A stretch of 64,000 nt of DNA. It comes from Fennellomyces sp. T-0311. Lineage: Eukaryota > Mucoromycota > Mucoromycetes > Mucorales > Lichtheimiaceae. Below the pieces are notes generated by a model, which saw only the letters and a program-made list of their open reading frames with translations, was not told the DNA's origin and did not search any database. The stretch lies in contig JALLLT010000045.1 of assembly GCA_025266875.1 (NCBI GenBank), forward strand, positions 248,001-312,000, read 5' to 3'. Below, in pieces: positions 1-56,165 of the stretch. How positions within the stretch are numbered: position 1 is the stretch's first letter; each line of letters starts with the position of its first letter. The translations under genes and the position numbers were made by a program.

Positions 1-3000
1 CGACAGCTTCCTTGGTGCTCCGCCTGAGTGGTTTCAATTAAATGATGTTATCGATTACAAGGTAAGTCGTCAGTAGAAGTTAATATATTAACCTGATGCT
101 GACCAGATCGCGTTATAGCCTCCCAAAGTTCGGAAACAAAAGCCAAAAGCTTCAAGCAATCAACCAGCTGCATGTAAGAAACGATCGAAAACCATTTCGA
201 CAACACGCGCGGAACGAGCGACAAGAAGAGCGAAGGGAAGACAAACAGCACCAGTGACGGCCAGCTCTTCACGAACCCCGCGGGCACAGACAGGCATCAA
301 ACGCGAAGAGGTCATTGATGTGTACGAGGCCGGTGTTGTCAAGCATTTCAAAAGCACCATTATCGATCTTCTGAAAAGCTCTGAAGACAAGACCGATGCT
401 TTAATGAATCTCAACAACTATGAAGAAAGGCACAACAACGCTCGTGCCCTTCCAAAATTCTTCAATTCAATGAGCGATACAATTGCGGCAAGGCACCCAA
501 ACATCCTTGATCTATCTAAAGAGTGGTTTTCGGACCGGTTGAAAGGCTACAAAGACTATGACAGGCTCGGTTACTTCCGTAGTCAAGGAAGCTCCTATAT
601 CGAAGGCATCCGAAAGACACTTGACACCTCCACGGATGAAAATTGGAAGTGTATGGCAACACGGTTCCTCGGTGGAGCCAACGATGGCTGCGATATGGAT
701 GATACAGTCGCCGGTGATGACAGCGACCCCAGTAACGAGGAGTGTTCAAGCTACGAGGAGAGTTCAAGCGATGAGGACGATTCGAGCGAGAACGGTGATT
801 CTGGTGCAAAGGATGTAAAGAGCAAACGTAGCAAAGAGAGCCGCACGGTCACGTTTACATTACGATCGATTCTTCGTCCAGAAGTGAACCATGACGAATT
901 TCTTACCACGGTCCTTCATGAACAGAAACGTGTCGCAGAATGCATGGATGGTCTGAGCGTCGCGGTTGCCAAGCTCACCGAGCTAATCGCAGATGGGTCA
1001 GCAGCGAAAATTTGTGGCGTTCAAGTTGAGAAGCTCGAATTTGACATCAAGAACGTAGCCCCTCAGTTCGATTTCGATAACAAGGAAACCACTGTCCCTG
1101 TGGCGGCTATCCCCAACGACCTCTCTGCTCTGGACAAAGCTGGAATATATTCGTATGCTCATTTTTCCAATCTATTGTCAGGTATAGCATCGCCATACCC
1201 GTATCCACGGCTTTTTAATCTCATTTCCACCTTTTATCAGGCTGTGTAGGTAATAGCATTCGGGAAGGGACTGAACGGAAAGAATTTGCCATGATTCGCA
1301 AGAAAATCAAAAAGTCTACCAAGGCAAAACGTCCTAATATGGAGTTTACTGGGAGCATGACCAATGCGTTACGTGAATTCAGTACAGCGTGCAAAAACCT
1401 TTGGACTCGAAAGAGACACAGACGTGATCTCAGAGTCACGTTGACGGCTCTGTTACGCTTGAATCTTGCGCCAAAGCGAGTTCGTCGCTATCTTGAGCTC
1501 CTGGCAAAGAAAGCTGCCGAGAAGAAACAGAAGAAAAAGGATTCTGCCAAGGGTAAATCAAGAGCAAGAGGTGCCGAATGCGCGCGGTTACTTTCCGATC
1601 TAACCAGGGCCATTGTCCGCCAACGGCCAACACATATCACCGATAACCTCTTGAGGAAGCTTGAGCGCAGCCTGGAGCAGGTACTTGAATTTCGTTTGAA
1701 ACGTCTCAATGCAATCTTCTCTAAATTTTGACTATGTAGAGACGCAAAAGAGCAACTAATGCCAATGCGGTATCGCGCACAAGCGGCGAACAAGACGTGG
1801 TTCCAGATCCAGAGGAATTTCACCCTTTGGATCTGTCTGGTGGCAACGAAGAGGAAGAGGCACCTGCAGGAGGAAAAGAGCAGTCGTCCGATGAAAAGGA
1901 AACCTCTGCAAGAGGAATTCGTGCTCTTGTCGCGATCATCACAGGTATACTCAATAGCAATTCTGAAACAACGACTGCCACGGATATCAAGAATGCGGCC
2001 TTCCGTGGGTGTATCCTAACGGATAAAGAGTGTCAGGTGGCTGCAGACATCGCTAATGGGATCCGACCAGTCTATACACCGCAGGCTGATGGCGCCAAGG
2101 ATGACCTTTGTGTTCACCAATGCTTACCACTTGCTATCATTACCAACCGAATTATCCACTTGATCGTCCCGCAGCAGAATGAGCAGGCGGTATCACCGAA
2201 AGTCGACGGCACGGACCATTCCATCCACCTCTCACCAGACGCTGTCTATACACTATTCTCGAAAACCCACGACATACCGGTCGACAGCAGAAAGATGGTT
2301 ACCAGCAAACGTTCGACATTCCGCGGAGAAGGCCGGAGCGCAACAATGGGTGCATTTTTCAACTTGCCGAAAATCAATGCTGTGCTCGGTAAACAAGGGC
2401 TATCAAATCGCTACCGGTTCACCTTTGTCAACTATCGCACGGTTCGCGTTCTTGGAACCAAGTGCAAGGGCAAAGACCGCAGAAAGACTAAAGGAAAGGC
2501 CAAGGTGAAGAGTCCCAAGAAGGCCAAAGGTTCCAAGAAAAGCAAAGCCAAAAAGGCCTCCCGTTCCAAGAAAAGGAAGGCGACTGTGAAGGCCAAGCCC
2601 ATCCAGGTCCCCAAGCGCAGGAAGATTTCAAAACAACTTGACGACCAGGCACAGAAACTGGAAGCAAATATCAATAAGCTTTCAGGTGAACTGACAGCTA
2701 TGCGCCGAAACCTGCCAAAGGCGGAAAGGGAGCGAGCGGATCTTGGGCACGAGCACCGACTATTACGGCAACAAAAGCCGGCGCCAATATGGGACTACAG
2801 GTTGTATGGAAGGCTGAAGTCTGCACGAGTGGCAGTTGCGGATCTGGAGCAGACGATCAGGGAACAGGAGAAAGAGCTTAAGAAAGCGCGAGCCAATTTA
2901 TATGTTACCAACCGTGCTGCCCGAGGGTTTACTGACAAAGTTCAGGAAGTTTCGAAAGAAATGGTAAGAAAATACGTGCGAGGCTTTCTCGGATAAACTG

Positions 3001-3865
3001 AAAGGCATCTGTGGAACTCTTAGGCAGCTGCTAAAGAGCGGATCAAACATGCATTACACAACGGCTCGCCTATGAACATTAGGGGCGTTGACCCAGGGCT
3101 GGTGACAGCGGCCACGATTTCAACACTCACACTCCAAGATGCCTATGTAAAAGTTGCTAGCCATGCATCTGGAAGTACGACAACCAACCCGCTGCGACCT
3201 ACAAAAGGGAAACGATATACAGCCCGCCACCTACACGCCGCACGCCTTGATAACGCCCATTCTGCCAACAGGAGTCGTAGGAGAGCGAGACAAATTGATG
3301 ATACTAAGAAACGTTCAAAAGAAAAAAGAACACGTGAAATACGAGGTGTCACATACCATCGCAAGTTGACTAGTGCTTGGCGAGAAGGAGCCACAATTAC
3401 GTTCAATGGTAAACAAATGACACCAGTAATACTCTGTCTGCTAACATTTTGCTATGGTTGCTAGGCTCGTACCGGCCAATAAACTCGCGCATCAAAGACC
3501 ACAGGAGAGCGAATCTGACCGCGCTGGGACAAGGAATAGATGCCCCAGATGAAGATATTATGGTGACCATCTCGGAGGACTACTCAAGTAAAACATGTCC
3601 CGTATGCTTGAGCTCAATGAAGCTGCATAAGTACCGTCGAGAAGGCGAACTGAAGACAGTAAATGGCGCACTGAGGTGTACGAACATCCGTTGCCCTTGC
3701 CATCGAAACAGTACATATGGAAGAGATGACGCCGCGGCCTTTAACATCGCAATTAGAGGGCTGTCCATCGCTATTTCAAAGGACAACACACCGCTGCAGG
3801 CGTTCAGGAGAAATCCACAAGACCCATATCAAATCAATCCCAACATGGAAATCCCTTCGGTGTAA
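1..3865 (+). CDS. Fanzor-type (TnpB-like) RuvC nuclease, 5'-partial, 6 visible exons
   Basis: Visible exons read as 2-61, 119-1181, 1241-1680, 1740-2963, 3024-3408 and 3465-3865; introns of 56-62 nt start GT and end AG, and frame is kept at every junction, giving about 1190 residues to the TAA. The C-terminal ~240 residues carry the TnpB/IS605 OrfB core: RuvC-I as RGVDPGL (Asp codon at 3090), a zinc ribbon starting CPVC just after ISEDYSSKT, a second Cys group (CTNIRCPC), and RuvC-III as GRDDAAAFNIA. The likely RuvC-II Glu is the E of ISED beside the zinc ribbon, matching the shifted Glu reported for Fanzors. Before the core lie an acidic Ser/Glu/Asp tract (about 710-800), a Lys/Arg-rich stretch (2461-2640) resembling a nuclear localisation signal, and a coiled coil (2640-2930). 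Known family members are RNA-guided DNA nucleases; activity here is inferred. Most Fanzors are much shorter, so the ~900-residue N-terminal part is unusual. The true start lies outside the window. Confidence 0.85.
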
Positions 3866-3888
3866 CTCGTGTTCTCGTTCGCTGCCCC

Positions 3889-3905
3889 AACCAGCTTGAA
3901 GCTGG
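3889..3905 (+). other. Short hairpin just after the Fanzor-type stop codon
   Basis: A six-base stem (CCAGCT / AGCTGG) with a three-base loop lies about 25 bp after the stop codon. In TnpB and Fanzor loci the guide RNA scaffold usually overlaps the 3' end of the gene and continues into the element end, so this is where such an RNA would be sought. The hairpin alone is too small to prove one. Confidence 0.25.
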
Positions 3906-4458
3906 AGAAAAAATAGTTTAGTTAGCTGAACGCCTGTATTTTTAACCTGGATTGCTCCTGAAGATATTATTGAACATTGCCGTTTTTTATATGGGGAAGC
4001 GTGGTGTCAATGAGATCCCCTTATGACGATCAGTCCCAAGGACAACGTGGTCGCTACACATTGGAACAGAACTTTAAATTCTGTATGCAGCAAAGATGAT
4101 GAAAATTATTATTGTCAGAAAGCCCTTAACACTTTGTGCATATCACACAACACATGAAACATGGTCAGTGGTAGGAGAAAAAGAAAGTATGAGGACTATT
4201 CGATATGGTTTGAAGGAAAGAGTAGATAGGAATAATGTGGATGAAATAAGAGGATAAACCAGACTTTTTTCTTTTTTTTTTCAGGGTATCTCGAGAGAGA
4301 GTAGATCACGTCTCCATATGGTGCTTGTCACCGCTACAGGCATTTCAGTAAGGTGGGCCATACCCGGCATTTCCTCTAATAAAGCAACCAAAGTTAGATC
4401 CTCCTCCATGCTCCCTCATCATCGCACACCACCTCCTTCCCTTCCTATTCCTCTTGCA
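3906..4458. other. Intergenic region between Fanzor-type gene and bHLH gene
   Basis: No coding region is supported. It includes a T-rich tract near 4263-4280 and the 3' untranslated zone of the convergent bHLH gene. If the Fanzor-type gene sits in a mobile element, its right end should lie here, but no terminal repeat can be recognised without the left end, which is outside the window. Confidence 0.5.
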
Positions 4459-6395
4459 TCAAGCTTTCTTCCCCTGCCCTCCCCGATCGCATCGCTGGAA
4501 ATATAGTGATACATACTCTCGTTCACGCTTCAGCATGCCCACTTCCCGTCGTAATGCGGAAACCTCGTTTTCCATTTCAAAGTCGCGGCGCTTGAGCAAC
4601 GAGATATACTCCACCGCTAAAAGAACCACCCATGTCAGCTACGGTCTCTTTTTACGCGACTTTTGACTGCTGTTACCTTTGCTCAGAATCTCCCATTTGC
4701 TCGTCTTGAGGTTCTTTTCCACTGGGAGTGAGTCACGCAGCTCATCAAATAGCTCCTTCATCTCCTTTCGTCGTTTACGTTCTGCGAGTTTATGGCTCAC
4801 ACGGAGCTCAGGGCTACGTGAATAGGGTGTTTCTGCCTTGCGGTTCACTGCTTTCTCTTCTTCAATAGCGCCATGGTGGTGTGCAGCCCCGCTGCTAGTA
4901 TAGCCGCTATGGTAACCTTCATGCTGCATCGCGTCGTGGTGACGATGCATTCCAGGGTGATGACTACCCTGCATACCAACCACGGGCATTGACGCGCGTC
5001 TCGCAAGCACTGGCCCTGACTCAGCTCCTTCGTCCATCAGAATGGATCGACGCCGGTGATGAAGCAAGGGCCCGCCTCCTCCACTGCCGCTGCTACTGCC
5101 ATTCGCGTAGGGATGGGCAGATCGTTGAAGATACTGGTAGTGATGGTCATTACCCAACGAAGGGGGGTATCGAGAACTTTGGCGTGAGTACCGTTGCGCC
5201 TCGCTTGACGAGGCCATCGCAGAAGGTTGGGGATTGTCAAACGATGAGGGAATAGAGCCAGAATGCGGCGGGCTCGAGGGAGCTGAATAAGGTCCGTGGC
5301 TCGGTGCTTCTGGGATAGTTGCAGGAAATCGGAATGCTGCATAAGACAATAAGATCATCAGTAAAAAAAAGGTGTCATGCATGAAAAAGGCAAAAAATAT
5401 ATACCTCGATGTTTGGCGGACGAGCCCAAGCGGTTGTTCGGTGGTACTTCGGCTGTGGCTATCGAATGGCGCCGCTGGAAAGGATCATAGGCTTGCTGTG
5501 TTTGTGCTACGCCTGGATGAGGCAGAGAATCTCGTCGTGCAGCCAGATAGTCAGATTCGTGGGGTAGACCCCTCTTGGCAAATGGGGATGGCGAGGGCGA
5601 TCGGGATGAGTAGTCGTAGTCAGTAGCAACGGTTGCCATGGAGCCACGTCGACTGGCGCTAGCAGAGGATGTGGGTAACGGCAGGTTGTTGAGATCTGTG
5701 ATCGACGGCCGGCGGAATTCAAGCGGCGGCGCTGGGCTGTTGTTGTGGTTACCGTGGAGCATGGGGTCCGTAATTGAACCTCTCCGTGAATACGACTCGT
5801 AATACTGCTGTTGCTGCTGCTGTTGTTGTTGCTGTTGGTGCTGTTGCTGTGAACTTGGCTCCAACGGCGAAAGCGCTCGTCCCGATAATTCGTGTGCAGG
5901 TGACATGGCCCTAGGACTTGCGGTGGTCGGCAGAGGTGCAGTTCCTCGCTGCGGTGGCGAAGGAACAGACACACTCATATCCGACATTCGGTGCCGCAGG
6001 TACTCATCCGACAAGTGGTGATTATTGTTCAACGTCGAATGTGGCTGTTGCTGAGAGGGCGACGACGCACGAGGGATGGGCGAGCATGGTTGAGCATTCG
6101 TGATGGACGGCAAATGTGGTTTCGTTATGGAGTCTAAAATATCACAATCAGCTAAAACAATCCAAAGTTTCCATAGCGACCAAGCATGGAGTGTTTAGGA
6201 ACCTTGATCATTGTGCGGCAGGGGTTCTCTCGAGTGTGAAGATTCGTAAGGCTCGTCGATTTGCATCTTGTCGGCTGAACTTGGGTCATCGGCGGTGGAG
6301 GACAACTTTGTTGGCGAGCGATCTTCAACATGCAACAACAGCTCTCGAGCAGAGGGCAGTATGCAAGTAGAATCTTCAGGATGCACGGTGTCCAT
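4459..6395 (-). CDS. bHLH-leucine zipper transcription factor
   Basis: Four exons on the minus strand, 6395-6203, 6133-5405, 5336-4677 and 4616-4459, join in frame into about 579 residues starting MDTVHPEDS. The long N-terminal part is low complexity: Ser/Pro-rich with a Gln run encoded near 5805-5850 and His-rich patches. The C-terminus holds the basic helix-loop-helix: basic region [13 protein letters not shown] with the H-E-R pattern of group B proteins (CACGTG E-box binders), helix 1 [11 protein letters not shown], then after the last intron helix 2 [18 protein letters not shown] running into heptad leucines ([13 protein letters not shown]), a short zipper. Expected to act in the nucleus as a dimer. 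RRxS motifs (RRRSIL, RRASM, RRGS) look like basophilic kinase sites. The ATG at 6395 is preceded by a 5' leader with no in-frame extension. Target genes cannot be told from sequence. Confidence 0.85.
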
Positions 6396-31482: not shown

Positions 31483-34400
31483 TTACTTGGCTTGGACATT
31501 GACACGGGCAGTGACGCGGCGAGGATCCAGCGTCTCGGGATCCAACGAGGGCAGCAAGTAAGAGATATCGTCCCAAGGATGACGGTACAAGCCCTGCTTC
31601 AATCGCTTCTGATCCAAGTGATGGCCGATGAAACCGAGGGTGCGGCCCAGCACGAACAGACCGTTGAGGGTGCCAATGCGAGAGTATTCTTCGGCTTCTT
31701 CGCGGCTGAAAGCGCCCGAGTCGCGCAACAAGTCAACGAACGAAACGGCAATGCAGCCATCGACGTTGAGGATCAGGTTGTCCTTCTTGCTGGTGGTGAT
31801 TTCCTCCACCTTCAGAGCATAGTCCAAGATGGGAGTGGTGGGGAAGTTCTTCTTGACGTACGACTTGACCAGCTCGACACGCATATCGGGGTTGGTGCGA
31901 GACTTGATCTTGTGGCCGATACCAGGAATCAGCTTGTTGGCCTTGCGCATGGATGTCACGAACTCGCGAGGCGTCATGCCGCTGTCGTAAGCGCGAGTGA
32001 AGTTGGTGGCAGCACCGTCTAAGGCACCACCGAAACGCTCACCAATCGTCAACAAACCAGACACAACAGAAGAAATCAAGTCCTTGCCAGCACGCGTGGT
32101 GATGATGGTGTTCATGGCCTATGTGTGATGATCATGTGAGTCCGTCTGTTGTCTTGACAGCAAATCAATATATTTGTACTTACACCAGACACGGCGGGAC
32201 CGTGATCGGCAGTCAACATGAGGACCATCTCAATGAACTTGCAGGCATAGTCGGGCAAGCGACGCTTGAACCACAAGAGAGACAACACACCACCGATACC
32301 AATCTCCTCCTTGAACACATCCGTGATGCGCATACCAGCGTACAAGAGTTCCTGGCCACGGTCGTCGACGATGGTCGAGACAAAGCTGGCGGGCTTACGA
32401 ACCAATCCCAGTTCCTGGGCCCAGGAGTAGTCAATGGGGATCTTGGGGATCTCGGGCTCGGCAGCGGGAACAATCACACCGTCCTTGACAAGCTTGTTGT
32501 AAGCCTCAGCCATGGCAACGGGCATCTTCTCAAAGGTCTCGGGGACAATGATACCGGCAGCGCGCATGGCCTTGTTCTTGGCATCAGCAGTCTCCAGATC
32601 CGAGTTGGCAAGGGCACCAGCGTGGCCAAACTGGACGTCGGTGGTGAACATCTTGGCGCAGGTACCGATACACCAGGCAACGACGGGCTTCTTGATGGTG
32701 CCGTTCTTGACAGCCTCGATCACGCGGTACTCCTCGACACCACCGACTTCACCGAGCAACACGAGCATCTTGCAGTTGGGGTCGTTCTCGTAACGGAGCA
32801 AGTGGTCGATGAAGGTCGAGCCAGGGTAACGATCACCACCAATAGCCACACCCTCGTATACGCCATCGGTCGTACGGGAAATGATGTTGTTCAATTCGTT
32901 GGACATACCACCCGACTTGCTGACGTAACCCACCGATCCAGAGCGATACAACTTGGAAGCGACAATGTTGTCCATCATACCACCGGTGTTACCGATCTTG
33001 AAGCAGCCAGGCTTGATACCACCCACAGTAGCAGGGCCGATCACCAACACCTTGCGACGCTCGGCTTCGTGCAACAGCTGGCGGGCGCGACGCTCAGGAA
33101 CACCTTCGGCAATGATGGCAATGGTCTTGAATTGAGGGAAGGTCAGGATCTCGCGGGTAGAGTCGAACACTGAACGGCACGAAGCGAAGTTGACGACAAC
33201 ATCAGCCTCGGGGAACTTTTCGCTGGCCTCCTTCAAGGTTGTGAAGACGGGAACAAGCGTCTCCTTGGTGCCCCAGTAGAACTTTTGGACGTGCGAACCA
33301 CCAAAGGGATAGACCATGGCAGCGACGGAGGGCGTTTCGCGCTTGCACATGAAATCGAAATCGAGCATGCCCTGGACAGCACGAGGCTGCATACCGTACA
33401 CAACAGCGCGGGTCTTGCCAGTGAAGGGACGGTACCATTCGGCGGTCTCTTCCTCCTTCTTGCTTTCAAAGTACTCCATACGGCCGTGGTGGTCGGCGGG
33501 AGTCTGGTTGTCCTCAGCCAACTTGAGCTTGGGGCTGCGGGTGCCGTTGGCAGGGGTGGTGGCACCGCTGTCACCCAGAATCTGATCTTGGAAAAGATTG
33601 CCGCTTGAGCCAGTGGGCAAGTTGCTGGCACCCGACGACGACTTGCCGAGAAGAGCCAAGGGGACAATGTCGGTGATGTGTGTTTCGGGGCCAAAGACCT
33701 GGATTTCAACACCCAAGGTTTCGCCCAATTGACGCATGGCGCGAAGACCTTCCTGGTAGTTGGGGCCACCGCGACGGATGAAGATGCGGACCTTGTGCGA
33801 GATCAATGCCTGCTTAAAGTCGGTCAGGGCGCGAATGATGCCCTTGAAGGTGGTGGCGACGTTGGTGAAGTTGGCAATGCCACCGCCGATGAAGAGCGTC
33901 TTGCCCTTGGGGTTGACCTCGCCACGCGTCATCAGGTCCAGGATGGTCTTGGCGTATTCGTATGTCTGGGTCTCGGTGGGAGCGCCCGAGTATTCGCCGT
34001 AGTTGGCCAATTCGTCAGCATAGCCCAATGCAGCAATGGCGTCCGAGTAAACAACTGAAGCACCACCGCCGGCAACCATCGTCCAGATACGGCCCTGACG
34101 GTTGAGGATCGTCAGCTTGAGTGAGGCACCGGTCTTGCCGTCCAGCTCCTGAATGTAGGCCTCTTCCTGGCTCAGCTCACGACCAAAGGGAGCAGGGAAC
34201 TCCATGGGCGGGCCCAAGTCGGCGTGCTGTTGCTTGTCTGCGGCGGGCAATCCGATATTCTGGGGAGCACGCGCAATTGCCCACTTGGGACCAGCCTCGA
34301 ACTCCGCCGTCTGGTCAAGCTTGGCGGCCAAGTCGAGATACATGACCTGAGGTGTTTGGCCTTCCGCGGGATCGGTGACGACGAGCGGATTGATTTCCAA

Positions 34401-35160
34401 ATACGTAAAGTGGAGATCTACGTAGACGGAGTACAAGCGTGTGATGAAGTCGACCAGCACGTCGCGCTTGAACTCGGGCACGTCCTTCAGCAAGGTGGTC
34501 TTGATCTCATCGGAAGAGGGGAAGGGCTCGTCCACCTTGACAAGCAGCTTGAGGGCCTTTGCATCGACGTCACCCACGTCAATGCCGCCCTCGTGTGTGA
34601 ACAGAATGTAGTCGCCCTCGCGCACCGAGTTGATGCAGACGTAGTATTCGGTGTTGGCTGGATGGGGCGTGAAGGGTTCGACGAGGAAGGTCTTGAGCTT
34701 GCCACTGGTCCGCTCGATCTGATAATCACGTAAACGGTATTTGTCAGTTCAATTCGCACTCCCGAGATATACCGAATCCCCGCCGTTTACCAACAACTGC
34801 ATTTACCTGAATGTCTTTGCCAGCGCGCTCCTCGATCCATCGTCGTGCCTCGGCCCAGTCCTTGTTGAGCGTCAGCAAACCGTGCTTGCCACGGCGCTTG
34901 ATCAGCTGGTCGGGCTTGGCCACGAGCTTGTCGGTGAGCAACCACGGGTGGGTCTGTTCGAGCAGGTCGAGCTGCTGCTTGAGTGTGCTATCGAAGGAGG
35001 CCGAGTTGAGCAATGATGTGTCCACCTGGATCTGCGCCAGCTTGGTTGCAGCGGGAGCAAACAGCGAAGGAGAGTCCTGCTGCGAGACTAATGGAGCACG
35101 GAGCAAGTGATGTGCGAGCAGCAGTTTGCCGTCATATTCCCGGATGGCCTTGGCAGACAT
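31483..35160 (-). CDS. ACL1: ATP-citrate synthase, fused single-chain form
   Basis: Three exons, 35160-34807, 34718-32184 and 32118-31483, join in phase 0 to about 1174 residues. It converts citrate, CoA and ATP to acetyl-CoA and oxaloacetate in the cytosol, feeding lipid and sterol synthesis and protein acetylation. The N-terminus ([19 protein letters not shown]) starts an ATP-grasp/succinyl-CoA synthetase beta-like part; a Ser/Gly/Pro-rich linker (about 33520-33640) joins the alpha-like part with the CoA-binding fold; the catalytic His lies in [31 protein letters not shown] and the citrate synthase-like C-terminal domain ([14 protein letters not shown] ... [10 protein letters not shown]) complete it. 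Size fits the animal-type fused enzyme (about 1100 residues); Ascomycota split it into two genes. It is convergent with the upstream FANCE-like gene, 147 bp apart. The codon bias is strong (GC-rich third positions), suggesting high expression. Confidence 0.97.
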
Positions 35161-54805: not shown

Positions 54806-56165
54806 ATGAACAACCAAGAACTTTCGCGATTCATCGTCAACAACATCGTACTGCAAAGCTCCATGTTGATTGAAACAAGACGAGCCCATTACGAGGAGGA
54901 AGACCGCGACGTGGCCCGTGTTAAAACACGCACACCAAGGCACCCGACGAAGCGACGCAAAGTGATCCATCGTAACAGGCCACTTTTTGAAAGGATTCTC
55001 ATGGAAGACTACTTCGCCCCCAATCCGCGCTACGATGCAGTATTCTTTCGAAGGCGTTTTCGTATGGGACGCATGCTTTTCATTACCATTATGCGCGAAC
55101 TGGAAAGCAAGTACGAATATTTTCAGCAAAGACCTGATGCTACGGGGACATTGTCCTTCCACCCATATGCAAAAGGAACCGCAGCAATGCGCATGTTAGC
55201 GTATGGTGGGCCAGCCGATGCCACTGACAAATACTTGAAGATGGGTGCGTCTACGGCATCAGAATCACTCCAGCACTTTTGCGCTGGTGTTATTGAGTGC
55301 TTCGGTGCTAAGTATCTTCGATCGCCAAACGAAGATGACCTGAAAGCACTGCTCGCAGTTAATGAGCAACGAGGTTTCCCTGGAATGCTCGGGTCACTCG
55401 ATTGTATGCATTGGGAATGGAAAAACTGCCCAAAAGGCTGGGAGGGTATGTATTCTGGGAAAGCAAAGAAGCCCACTGTTATTTTGGAAGCTGTTGCCAC
55501 CCATGATCTTTGGATATGGCATTCCTTTTTCGGTGTTCCTGGTTCCTGCAATGACATCAATGTCTTGCATAAATCTCCTCTCTTTGACGATGTGTTGCAC
55601 AACCGTGCACCATCTGTTCACTACACCATCAATGGCCATGAGTACACTAAAGGGTATTATCTAGCCGATGGCATCTACCCTTCGTGGTCGACCCTGGTGA
55701 AAACAATCCCGGCACCTCAGGGAGAGAAAGAAGAGGTAACCATTCATCTTGTACTTGACCTATACAAGGAATCTAAATCACAATTATATACAGTATTTTG
55801 CCAAGAGGCAAGAGTCTGTCCGCAAGGATATCGAGCGTGCCTTTGGTGTTTTACAGGCGCGCTTTAACATTGTTCGGCAGCCTGCACGTGTATGGAGCAA
55901 GGCGATTCTAGCAAACATCATGAAAACGTGCATAATTTTGCATAACATGATTGTTGAGAACGAGCGTACAAAATACCCGAGTCGTATAGCTGTCGAGGAA
56001 GACTATGATTCCAACGAAACCTACTCTGTTATGCCGTCTTACGAACGTGGAGGACCGTGCACAGACTATATGTACCAATCTCGCCTGAAAGAAGTACATG
56101 ATGAGCATATGCATATACGCTTACGCAAGGACCTTGTAGAACATTTATCAAAAGAGTATGAGTAA
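54806..56165 (+). CDS. PIF/Harbinger transposase (DDE superfamily)
   Basis: Exons 54806-55735 and 55794-56165 join in phase 0 into about 433 residues; the 58-nt intron runs GTAACC...ATACAG. The N-terminal third is basic, followed by the HARBI1-type nuclease fold. Catalytic residues: first Asp in GSLDCMHWEWKNCP, second Asp in YYLADGIYPSWS, Glu in RKDIERAFGVLQARF. LEAVATHDLWIWHSFFGVPG and SCNDINVL are conserved blocks of the family. No stop or frameshift interrupts it, so it may be functional. The sequence is close to the plant and oomycete ALP1-like group by motif. It acts with the SANT-like partner on the TIRs. Confidence 0.95.

Follow-up and report, generated by a model that had tools for sequence, protein, structure and literature searches.

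We analyzed a 64,000-nucleotide stretch of the genome of Fennellomyces sp. T-0311, a member of the Mucorales (contig JALLLT010000045.1, positions 248,001 to 312,000; hereafter "the window", C123:248001-312000 in the 45.6-Mb, 182-contig genome that we searched), and focused on a gene at its left edge that encodes an unusually long predicted Fanzor nuclease and lies in a transposon. The gene begins with an ATG at G000:C123:247600 (window position -400) and ends with a stop codon at 3863-3865; it and all features of the gene and element given below lie on the forward strand. Six exons separated by five GT-AG introns of 56-60 nucleotides form a single frame, with a spliced product of 1,324 amino acids (1,321 when an alternative acceptor lengthens intron 2 to 68 nucleotides). 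The window holds the 3′ part of exon 1 (1-61; the exon begins at -400, and its GT donor is at 62), exon 2 (119-1181, from residue 155), exon 3 (1241-1680, or from 1250 with the alternative acceptor), exon 4 (1740-2963, residues 656-1063), exon 5 (3024-3408, with RuvC-I), and exon 6 (3465-3865, with the alternative RuvC-II glutamate, the zinc ribbon, RuvC-III and the stop codon).

Gene model and Fanzor signature

We compared the gene with three other long copies in the genome (L010, L011 and L012). L010 retains every splice site and an open frame, including that of exon 2, with only in-frame insertions or deletions of +21, +3 and +3. The splice sites of exon 3 are also intact in L011, which carries a 32-bp deletion, and most of the gene is missing from L012. 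Protein searches returned at least four public relatives, and those that equal or closely match the window protein come from Fennellomyces sp. T-0311. One of them, P0003 (BJV82DRAFT_290385, 484 amino acids), is identical to residues 841-1324 and splices introns 4 and 5 in the same way, in agreement with our 3′ splice of exon 4 and with exons 5 and 6. All of the public models are short (P0003, 484; P0004, 418; P0002, 840 amino acids), as they would be if the N-terminal part belonged to another gene or had been joined to the model by mistake, so that the real Fanzor was the C-terminal 480-840 residues of the public annotation. We consider this very unlikely: the frame is kept across all five introns, L010 is a single open frame, a related family of elements in the same genome (family B, described below) has the same order of blocks within one element, and P0003 and P0004 are fragments of one kind of gene taken from different copies.

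The Fanzor signature sits in the last 239 residues of the protein. Motif scans placed RGVDPGL at residues 1083-1089, with D1086 of its DPG as the RuvC-I aspartate (3090-3092), and GRDDAAAFNIA from residue 1277, with RD at 1278-1279 and D1279 as the RuvC-III aspartate (3725-3727). Between them, a profile match and a motif scan located a C4 zinc ribbon (C1236 to C1270; 3596-3700), and six residues ahead of this zinc finger is E1229 (3575-3577), in the position of the alternative RuvC-II glutamate that PMC10711439 lists, together with DPG, the C4 finger and RD, among the features that distinguish Fanzor from TnpB. An earlier note on this DNA had described a Fanzor-type RuvC and zinc-ribbon protein with these three acidic residues, which it numbered D952, E1095 and D1145, preceded by about 950 visible residues that include an acidic tract, a Lys-rich block and a coiled coil. 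We located each of these features, and another 134 residues lie left of the window. Retrieving the 5′ flank, as the note had proposed, placed the gene start at -400 and the left end of the element at about -1862.

We compared the signature across the window protein, a family B protein (B_L001) and P0002 from Zychaea mexicana. All three have DPG at RuvC-I, and all three have the alternative glutamate six residues before the CxxC. The window protein fits the pattern D-X(125,275)-[TS][TS]-X-X-C4-X(5,50)-RD, starting from D1086 with a first spacer of 145 residues. The combined C4 and RD pattern is also present in B_L001; it fails in P0002 because that gene model lacks the second cysteine pair. No match arose in 20,000 shuffles of the window protein, and the pattern is therefore not a chance occurrence. 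Together, the signature residues and the shuffles bear out the earlier assignment.

Profile searches, a check that the note had suggested, gave modest evidence. With a four-sequence query that includes two from the window gene itself, the best PDB profile match was the Spizellomyces Fanzor1 SpuFz1 (8gkh; E 0.027), and no TnpB model appeared among NCBIfam matches up to E 1 for an alignment of the C-terminal part (A1). Against PF07282 (cut-off 26.3 bits), the best sister copy in the genome reached 27.6 bits and B_L001 25.6 bits. Two results count against the assignment: the window protein itself stays under the PF07282 cut-off, both as a whole (18.6 bits, E 0.0021) and as the exon 6 frame (24.8 bits), and the TDG motif described for the Fanzor1 WED domain (PMC10711439) is absent from all three proteins, of which B_L001 comprises only the C-terminal part and P0002 is partial. 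Because TDG is absent, we file the protein as a Fanzor and not firmly as a Fanzor1. By its sequence, the RuvC and zinc-ribbon end is an intact Fanzor type.

Length and the N-terminal region

Most Fanzor1 proteins have 600-700 amino acids (PMC11423790), and some reach about 800 (PMC10711439). At 1,324 residues the predicted window Fanzor is about twice the published Fanzor1 length, as the note had anticipated in calling it far longer than most, and we found no Fanzor this long, and none from Fennellomyces, in the titles and abstract openings of the open-licence papers that our searches listed. PpFz1 of Parasitella parasitica, also of the Mucorales, is likewise a Fanzor1 that carries more sequence than other Fanzors, but there the addition is an insert of about 100 residues within RuvC, whereas in the window Fanzor it precedes RuvC-I (PMC11423790).

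By composition, the N-terminal part includes an acidic tract (residues ~346-386; 692-814), a Lys-rich block (residues 895-950, 52% K+R; 2457-2624) and a coiled-coil-like stretch (residues 950-1062; 2622-2960), the last with weak matches to coiled-coil families in general searches only. Family B is similar to the window Fanzor over the whole protein (copies L001, L033, L034 and L038). Identity is 39-41% over residues 10-154, 34-35% over 211-509 in L033 and L034 (30% and 45% for two pieces in L038), 43-44% over 506-649, 32-47% piecewise over 691-1069, and 39-41% over 1067-1320. The alignment with P0002 from Z. mexicana starts at residue 707 in a local comparison and at about 585 in a multiple alignment.

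The ratio of nonsynonymous to synonymous substitution rates (dN/dS) between the window copy and L010 is 0.36 overall (p 5e-6). By region it is 0.35 for residues 1-505 (p 8e-4), 1.24 for 506-700 (from five changes only), 0.48 for 701-1063 and 0.12 for the RuvC part. Against L011 the corresponding regional values are 0.32, 0.82, 0.47 and 0.09; the two comparisons have the window copy in common. Because it is conserved in family B and the ratio for residues 1-505 points to purifying selection, we read the N-terminal part as a real, conserved and selected part of the predicted protein. No convincing known domain was found in residues 1-700 with Pfam or PDB profiles, so the large uncharacterised N-terminal region of the earlier note stands, with no domain named by the libraries searched. 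The best NCBIfam and PADLOC matches, obtained with alignment A1 of the C-terminal part only, were SMC_prok_B (E 0.002, one of four members) and LmuB (E 1.7e-4, two of four), which we take as putative coiled-coil or Lys-rich matches. Most likely, the extra ~500-700 N-terminal residues, with their acidic, basic and probably helical parts, have a putative role in binding DNA, chromatin or a partner.

Copies, ends and relation to Helentrons

The visible part of the element spans 1-3943, where 3943 is its right end; it starts at about -1862 (C123:246139), for a total of 5.8 kb. Near the right end are a subterminal hairpin (CCAGCTT-G-AAGCTGG, 3891-3905) and the right inverted repeat GAACGCCT (3928-3935), the complement of AGGCGTTC in the left ends of sister copies; the left repeat of the window copy itself is mutated. 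A DNA search with window positions 2300-4300 found at least 36 matching stretches genome-wide: the window copy, eight other copies of greater length, an additional piece belonging to one of these eight, and 26 places that match only the right end, over about 350 bp. All 20 of the right-end-only places that we examined are shortened "ghosts" that retain the segment at 3594-3943, and 19 of them lack the same internal stretch, which extends from about -170 to 3594, in a listing that left out pieces under 60 bp. The twentieth, L026, has a gap of about 50 bp at the ghost junction and falls outside that count. In 19 of the 20, all but L031, a left end can be recognised. Since the flanks of L023 and L024 are identical, these two are a single insertion that was duplicated along with its surroundings. 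Target-site duplications are consistent in none of 11 copies, the longest common word being 5 bp in one copy, which agrees with the lack of such duplications at full 5′ ends that marks non-autonomous Helitron2/Helentron elements, and a search of a phage collection at the DNA level gave no match.

Family B shares its first ~80 bp with the window element at 95% identity; its right end is matched 23 times, in 17 cases strongly (E below 1e-36). The genome contains two paralogous families of Fanzor elements, A (that of the window) and B. At C114:358851-359421 and in L034 (4825-5113, reverse strand), an A-family right end is followed after about 230 bp by the left end of a B element, and such tail-to-head neighbours occur at both C124 and C114. 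In L033 (4211-5002) an inner RuvC-region piece of a B copy reads inverted. In L035 (C150:182700-188700) an A-family left end halts exactly at the ghost junction, with no right end in the following ~4 kb.

Allowing one mismatch, we found the left-end pattern CCTTTTTAGGCGTTCTA at 32 places in the genome, compared with one for a backward control. Five of these places were not accounted for at first by family A, family B or the ghosts, and we examined four of them (on C120, C172, C104 and C153), leaving aside C128:545430. The C104 place proved to be family B, and C153 has the pattern alone, with no frame much over 100 amino acids. Those on C120 and C172 carry elements with a Rep and a helicase. 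The C120 element shares the left end at 80.6% over 98 bp (E 4e-13) and encodes Helitron_like_N (E 1e-23), PIF1 (E 2e-29) and Exo_endo_phos (E 2e-10) domains, and a Rep, a PIF1 helicase and an endonuclease together are the make-up of a Helentron (PMC5148889). Stops interrupt the C172 copy, and in C120 the Rep and the helicase occupy different frames; we therefore claim neither as active.

Helitron_like_N matches number 44 genome-wide, apparently from several families and in part on short contigs; we examined six Rep elements, four of them chosen for long open frames (1796, 1796, 1541 and 681 amino acids). All four open-frame Helentrons have the shared left end, which one ghost matches at 87-89% over 37-39 bp. 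Their loop is TATACGGAGTTTGAAA, the same as in the C120 element, with both stem arms shortened. The two arms vary together, as AGGCGTTC/GAACGCCT in one form and AGCGTTC/GAACGCT in the other. Over two stretches that we compared, the Helentrons on C39 and C179 agree at 99.8%; the one on C39 measures about 6.2 kb end to end. Each has a T-rich end and combines a 3′ hairpin with an asymmetrical inverted repeat of 11 bp. For the C120 element, whose right end is a candidate, the asymmetrical inverted repeat measures 13 bp, and a 3′ hairpin again lies downstream of it. PF07282 matches on the Helentron contigs are absent or not nearby, so that these Helentrons carry no recognised Fanzor; reciprocally, the Fanzor elements carry no Rep. 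Elements with the make-up of published Helentrons (PMC5148889, PMC3627910) and the left end of the Fanzor elements are present in this genome.

We consider it likely that the gene travels as cargo in a Helitron2/Helentron-type rolling-circle transposon, 5.8 kb long and non-autonomous. Several observations speak against this. The window element itself resembles the four open-frame Helentrons over only 30-32 bp of the left end (84-87%, E 6e-4 to 7e-3). A left terminal stem of 8-9 bp is clear in four of nine folded left ends (L017, L019, L020 and L036); L028 has an altered form, and the stem is missing from L014, L034, L037 and the window copy. In families A and B the hairpin precedes the right repeat and none follows it; at the right end, Fanzor elements and Helentrons have only the short repeat in common. 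Searches with the joined flanks of 11 copies found no empty site spanning a junction. Because a 3′ hairpin after the repeat is seen in the Helentrons and not in A or B, the safe wording is that the ends are Helitron2-like and that the elements are probably mobilised by Helentrons. A Crypton, IS607 or DDE origin, which we had considered as no duplication was seen, was dropped once Rep-helicase elements proved to carry the left end.

The closest published parallels are the CRe-1/2/3 Fanzor1 elements of Chlamydomonas (PMC3627910), in which, as we propose for the window element, a multi-exon Fanzor gene sits in a non-autonomous Helitron2 whose left end is common to Rep-helicase elements of the same genome. 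They too show internal deletions with intact 3′ ends and near-end inverted repeats; their 5′ hairpin has a clear counterpart in the four left ends named above, the window copy not among them. The window element differs in its host, in its far longer protein of 1,324 residues, in having no variable target duplications (11 copies) and in having no right-end hairpin after the repeat. Spu-1 of Spizellomyces punctatus, which encodes SpuFz1, the nearest solved structure to the window protein by profile, is likewise a Fanzor-only element with many ghosts, but its protein has about 635 residues and the element measures 2.1 kb, and is bounded by terminal inverted repeats of 30-33 bp, with putative TA duplications (PMC10432273, PMC3627910).

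These data also bear on the suggestion in the earlier note of a new subfamily, perhaps domesticated. A new subfamily is plausible. Domestication, in which one Fanzor copy would be retained for a host function, would account for purifying selection on the protein, but a low dN/dS is equally explained by selection during transposition. We reject it, and give it almost no credence, because of the copy number, the ghosts and the shared ends: there are near-identical copies, the ghosts have the same ends, the element boundaries lie just outside the gene, and the left end is common to Helentrons.

Putative guide RNA, proposed mechanism and implications

Right-end RNA and cutting have been demonstrated for SpuFz1 (PMC10432273, PMC3627910), and for the window Fanzor we infer a guide RNA. 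The last 150 nucleotides of the window copy fold with a z-score of -2.7 (one of 200 shuffles folds as well), and this fold closes the right repeat on its complement inside the coding end. It fits a right-end RNA, but may merely mirror the inverted repeat. Other results do not bear it out: the folds of the last 70 and 100 nucleotides are not significant (z -0.5 and -0.3), nor are those of family B (z -0.8 and -0.9); across 24 related copies z ranges from -3.5 to +2.0, and Rfam has no match in window 2900-4300. The element terminates in TTTTT, which is a polymerase III stop signal, and a guide running beyond the element end would therefore need another polymerase. In 18 of the 20 ghosts the right end resembles that of the window copy more closely than the left end does, by a modest margin. 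We did not use right-end constraint as a sign of a guide RNA, as ghost diversity is flat (0.069-0.079 at the right end and 0.036-0.120 along the left).

The protein could instead have lost RNA guidance and act as an accessory nuclease or DNA-binding factor of the transposon, directed by its N-terminal part. This would suit the weak evidence for RNA structure and an extension that is about as conserved between families A and B as the nuclease part. We think it unlikely, as both the zinc finger and the catalytic residues are preserved, dN/dS is lowest in the RuvC part (0.09-0.12), and the Fanzors assayed in the published work consulted are RNA-guided.

If the gene is Helentron cargo, a Helentron Rep protein would nick and copy the Fanzor element in trans. 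The Fanzor would be loaded with RNA from the right end of the element that extends into flanking DNA, and would cut matching sites that lack the element, at which repair would then restore a copy of the element, following the proposal made for TnpB (the basis for this scheme is RNA-guided cutting by Fanzor and TnpB; PMC10432273). Fanzor cutting would thus help an HUH transposon to maintain its copies. A further reading, possible but on the doubtful side, is that these proteins form a giant Mucorales Fanzor subfamily, in which the conserved N-terminal module of ~500-700 residues would link the RNA-guided nuclease with the rolling-circle transposition of Helentrons, for instance through contacts with Rep, with its intermediate or with chromatin. 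It would be a eukaryotic counterpart of the HUH transposase and TnpB of IS200/IS605, with the parts in separate elements that have a common end.

Elsewhere in the window, a frame with a basic helix-loop-helix (bHLH) domain begins some 700 bp beyond the right end of the element (4639-5382, reverse strand), ATP-citrate lyase domains are encoded at 32112-34625 (reverse strand), and a second transposon is marked by an open frame with a Plant_tran/DDE_Tnp_4 transposase domain at 54806-55867 (E 3e-66). Left of the element, in the flanking stretch L009 (about 625-1740), lies a coding sequence that, judged by a motif, is presumably the end of a GH3 beta-glucosidase.

Our data suggest that Fanzors can reach about twice their reported length. 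Long Fanzors may escape surveys that rely on public gene models, since the models here are pieces of 484 and 418 amino acids. The persistence of Fanzors in so many families of transposons calls for an explanation. With Fanzor elements, their ghosts, and open-frame Helentrons of common left end in one genome, the cooperation proposed between a eukaryotic RNA-guided nuclease and an HUH enzyme would be testable in a single organism.

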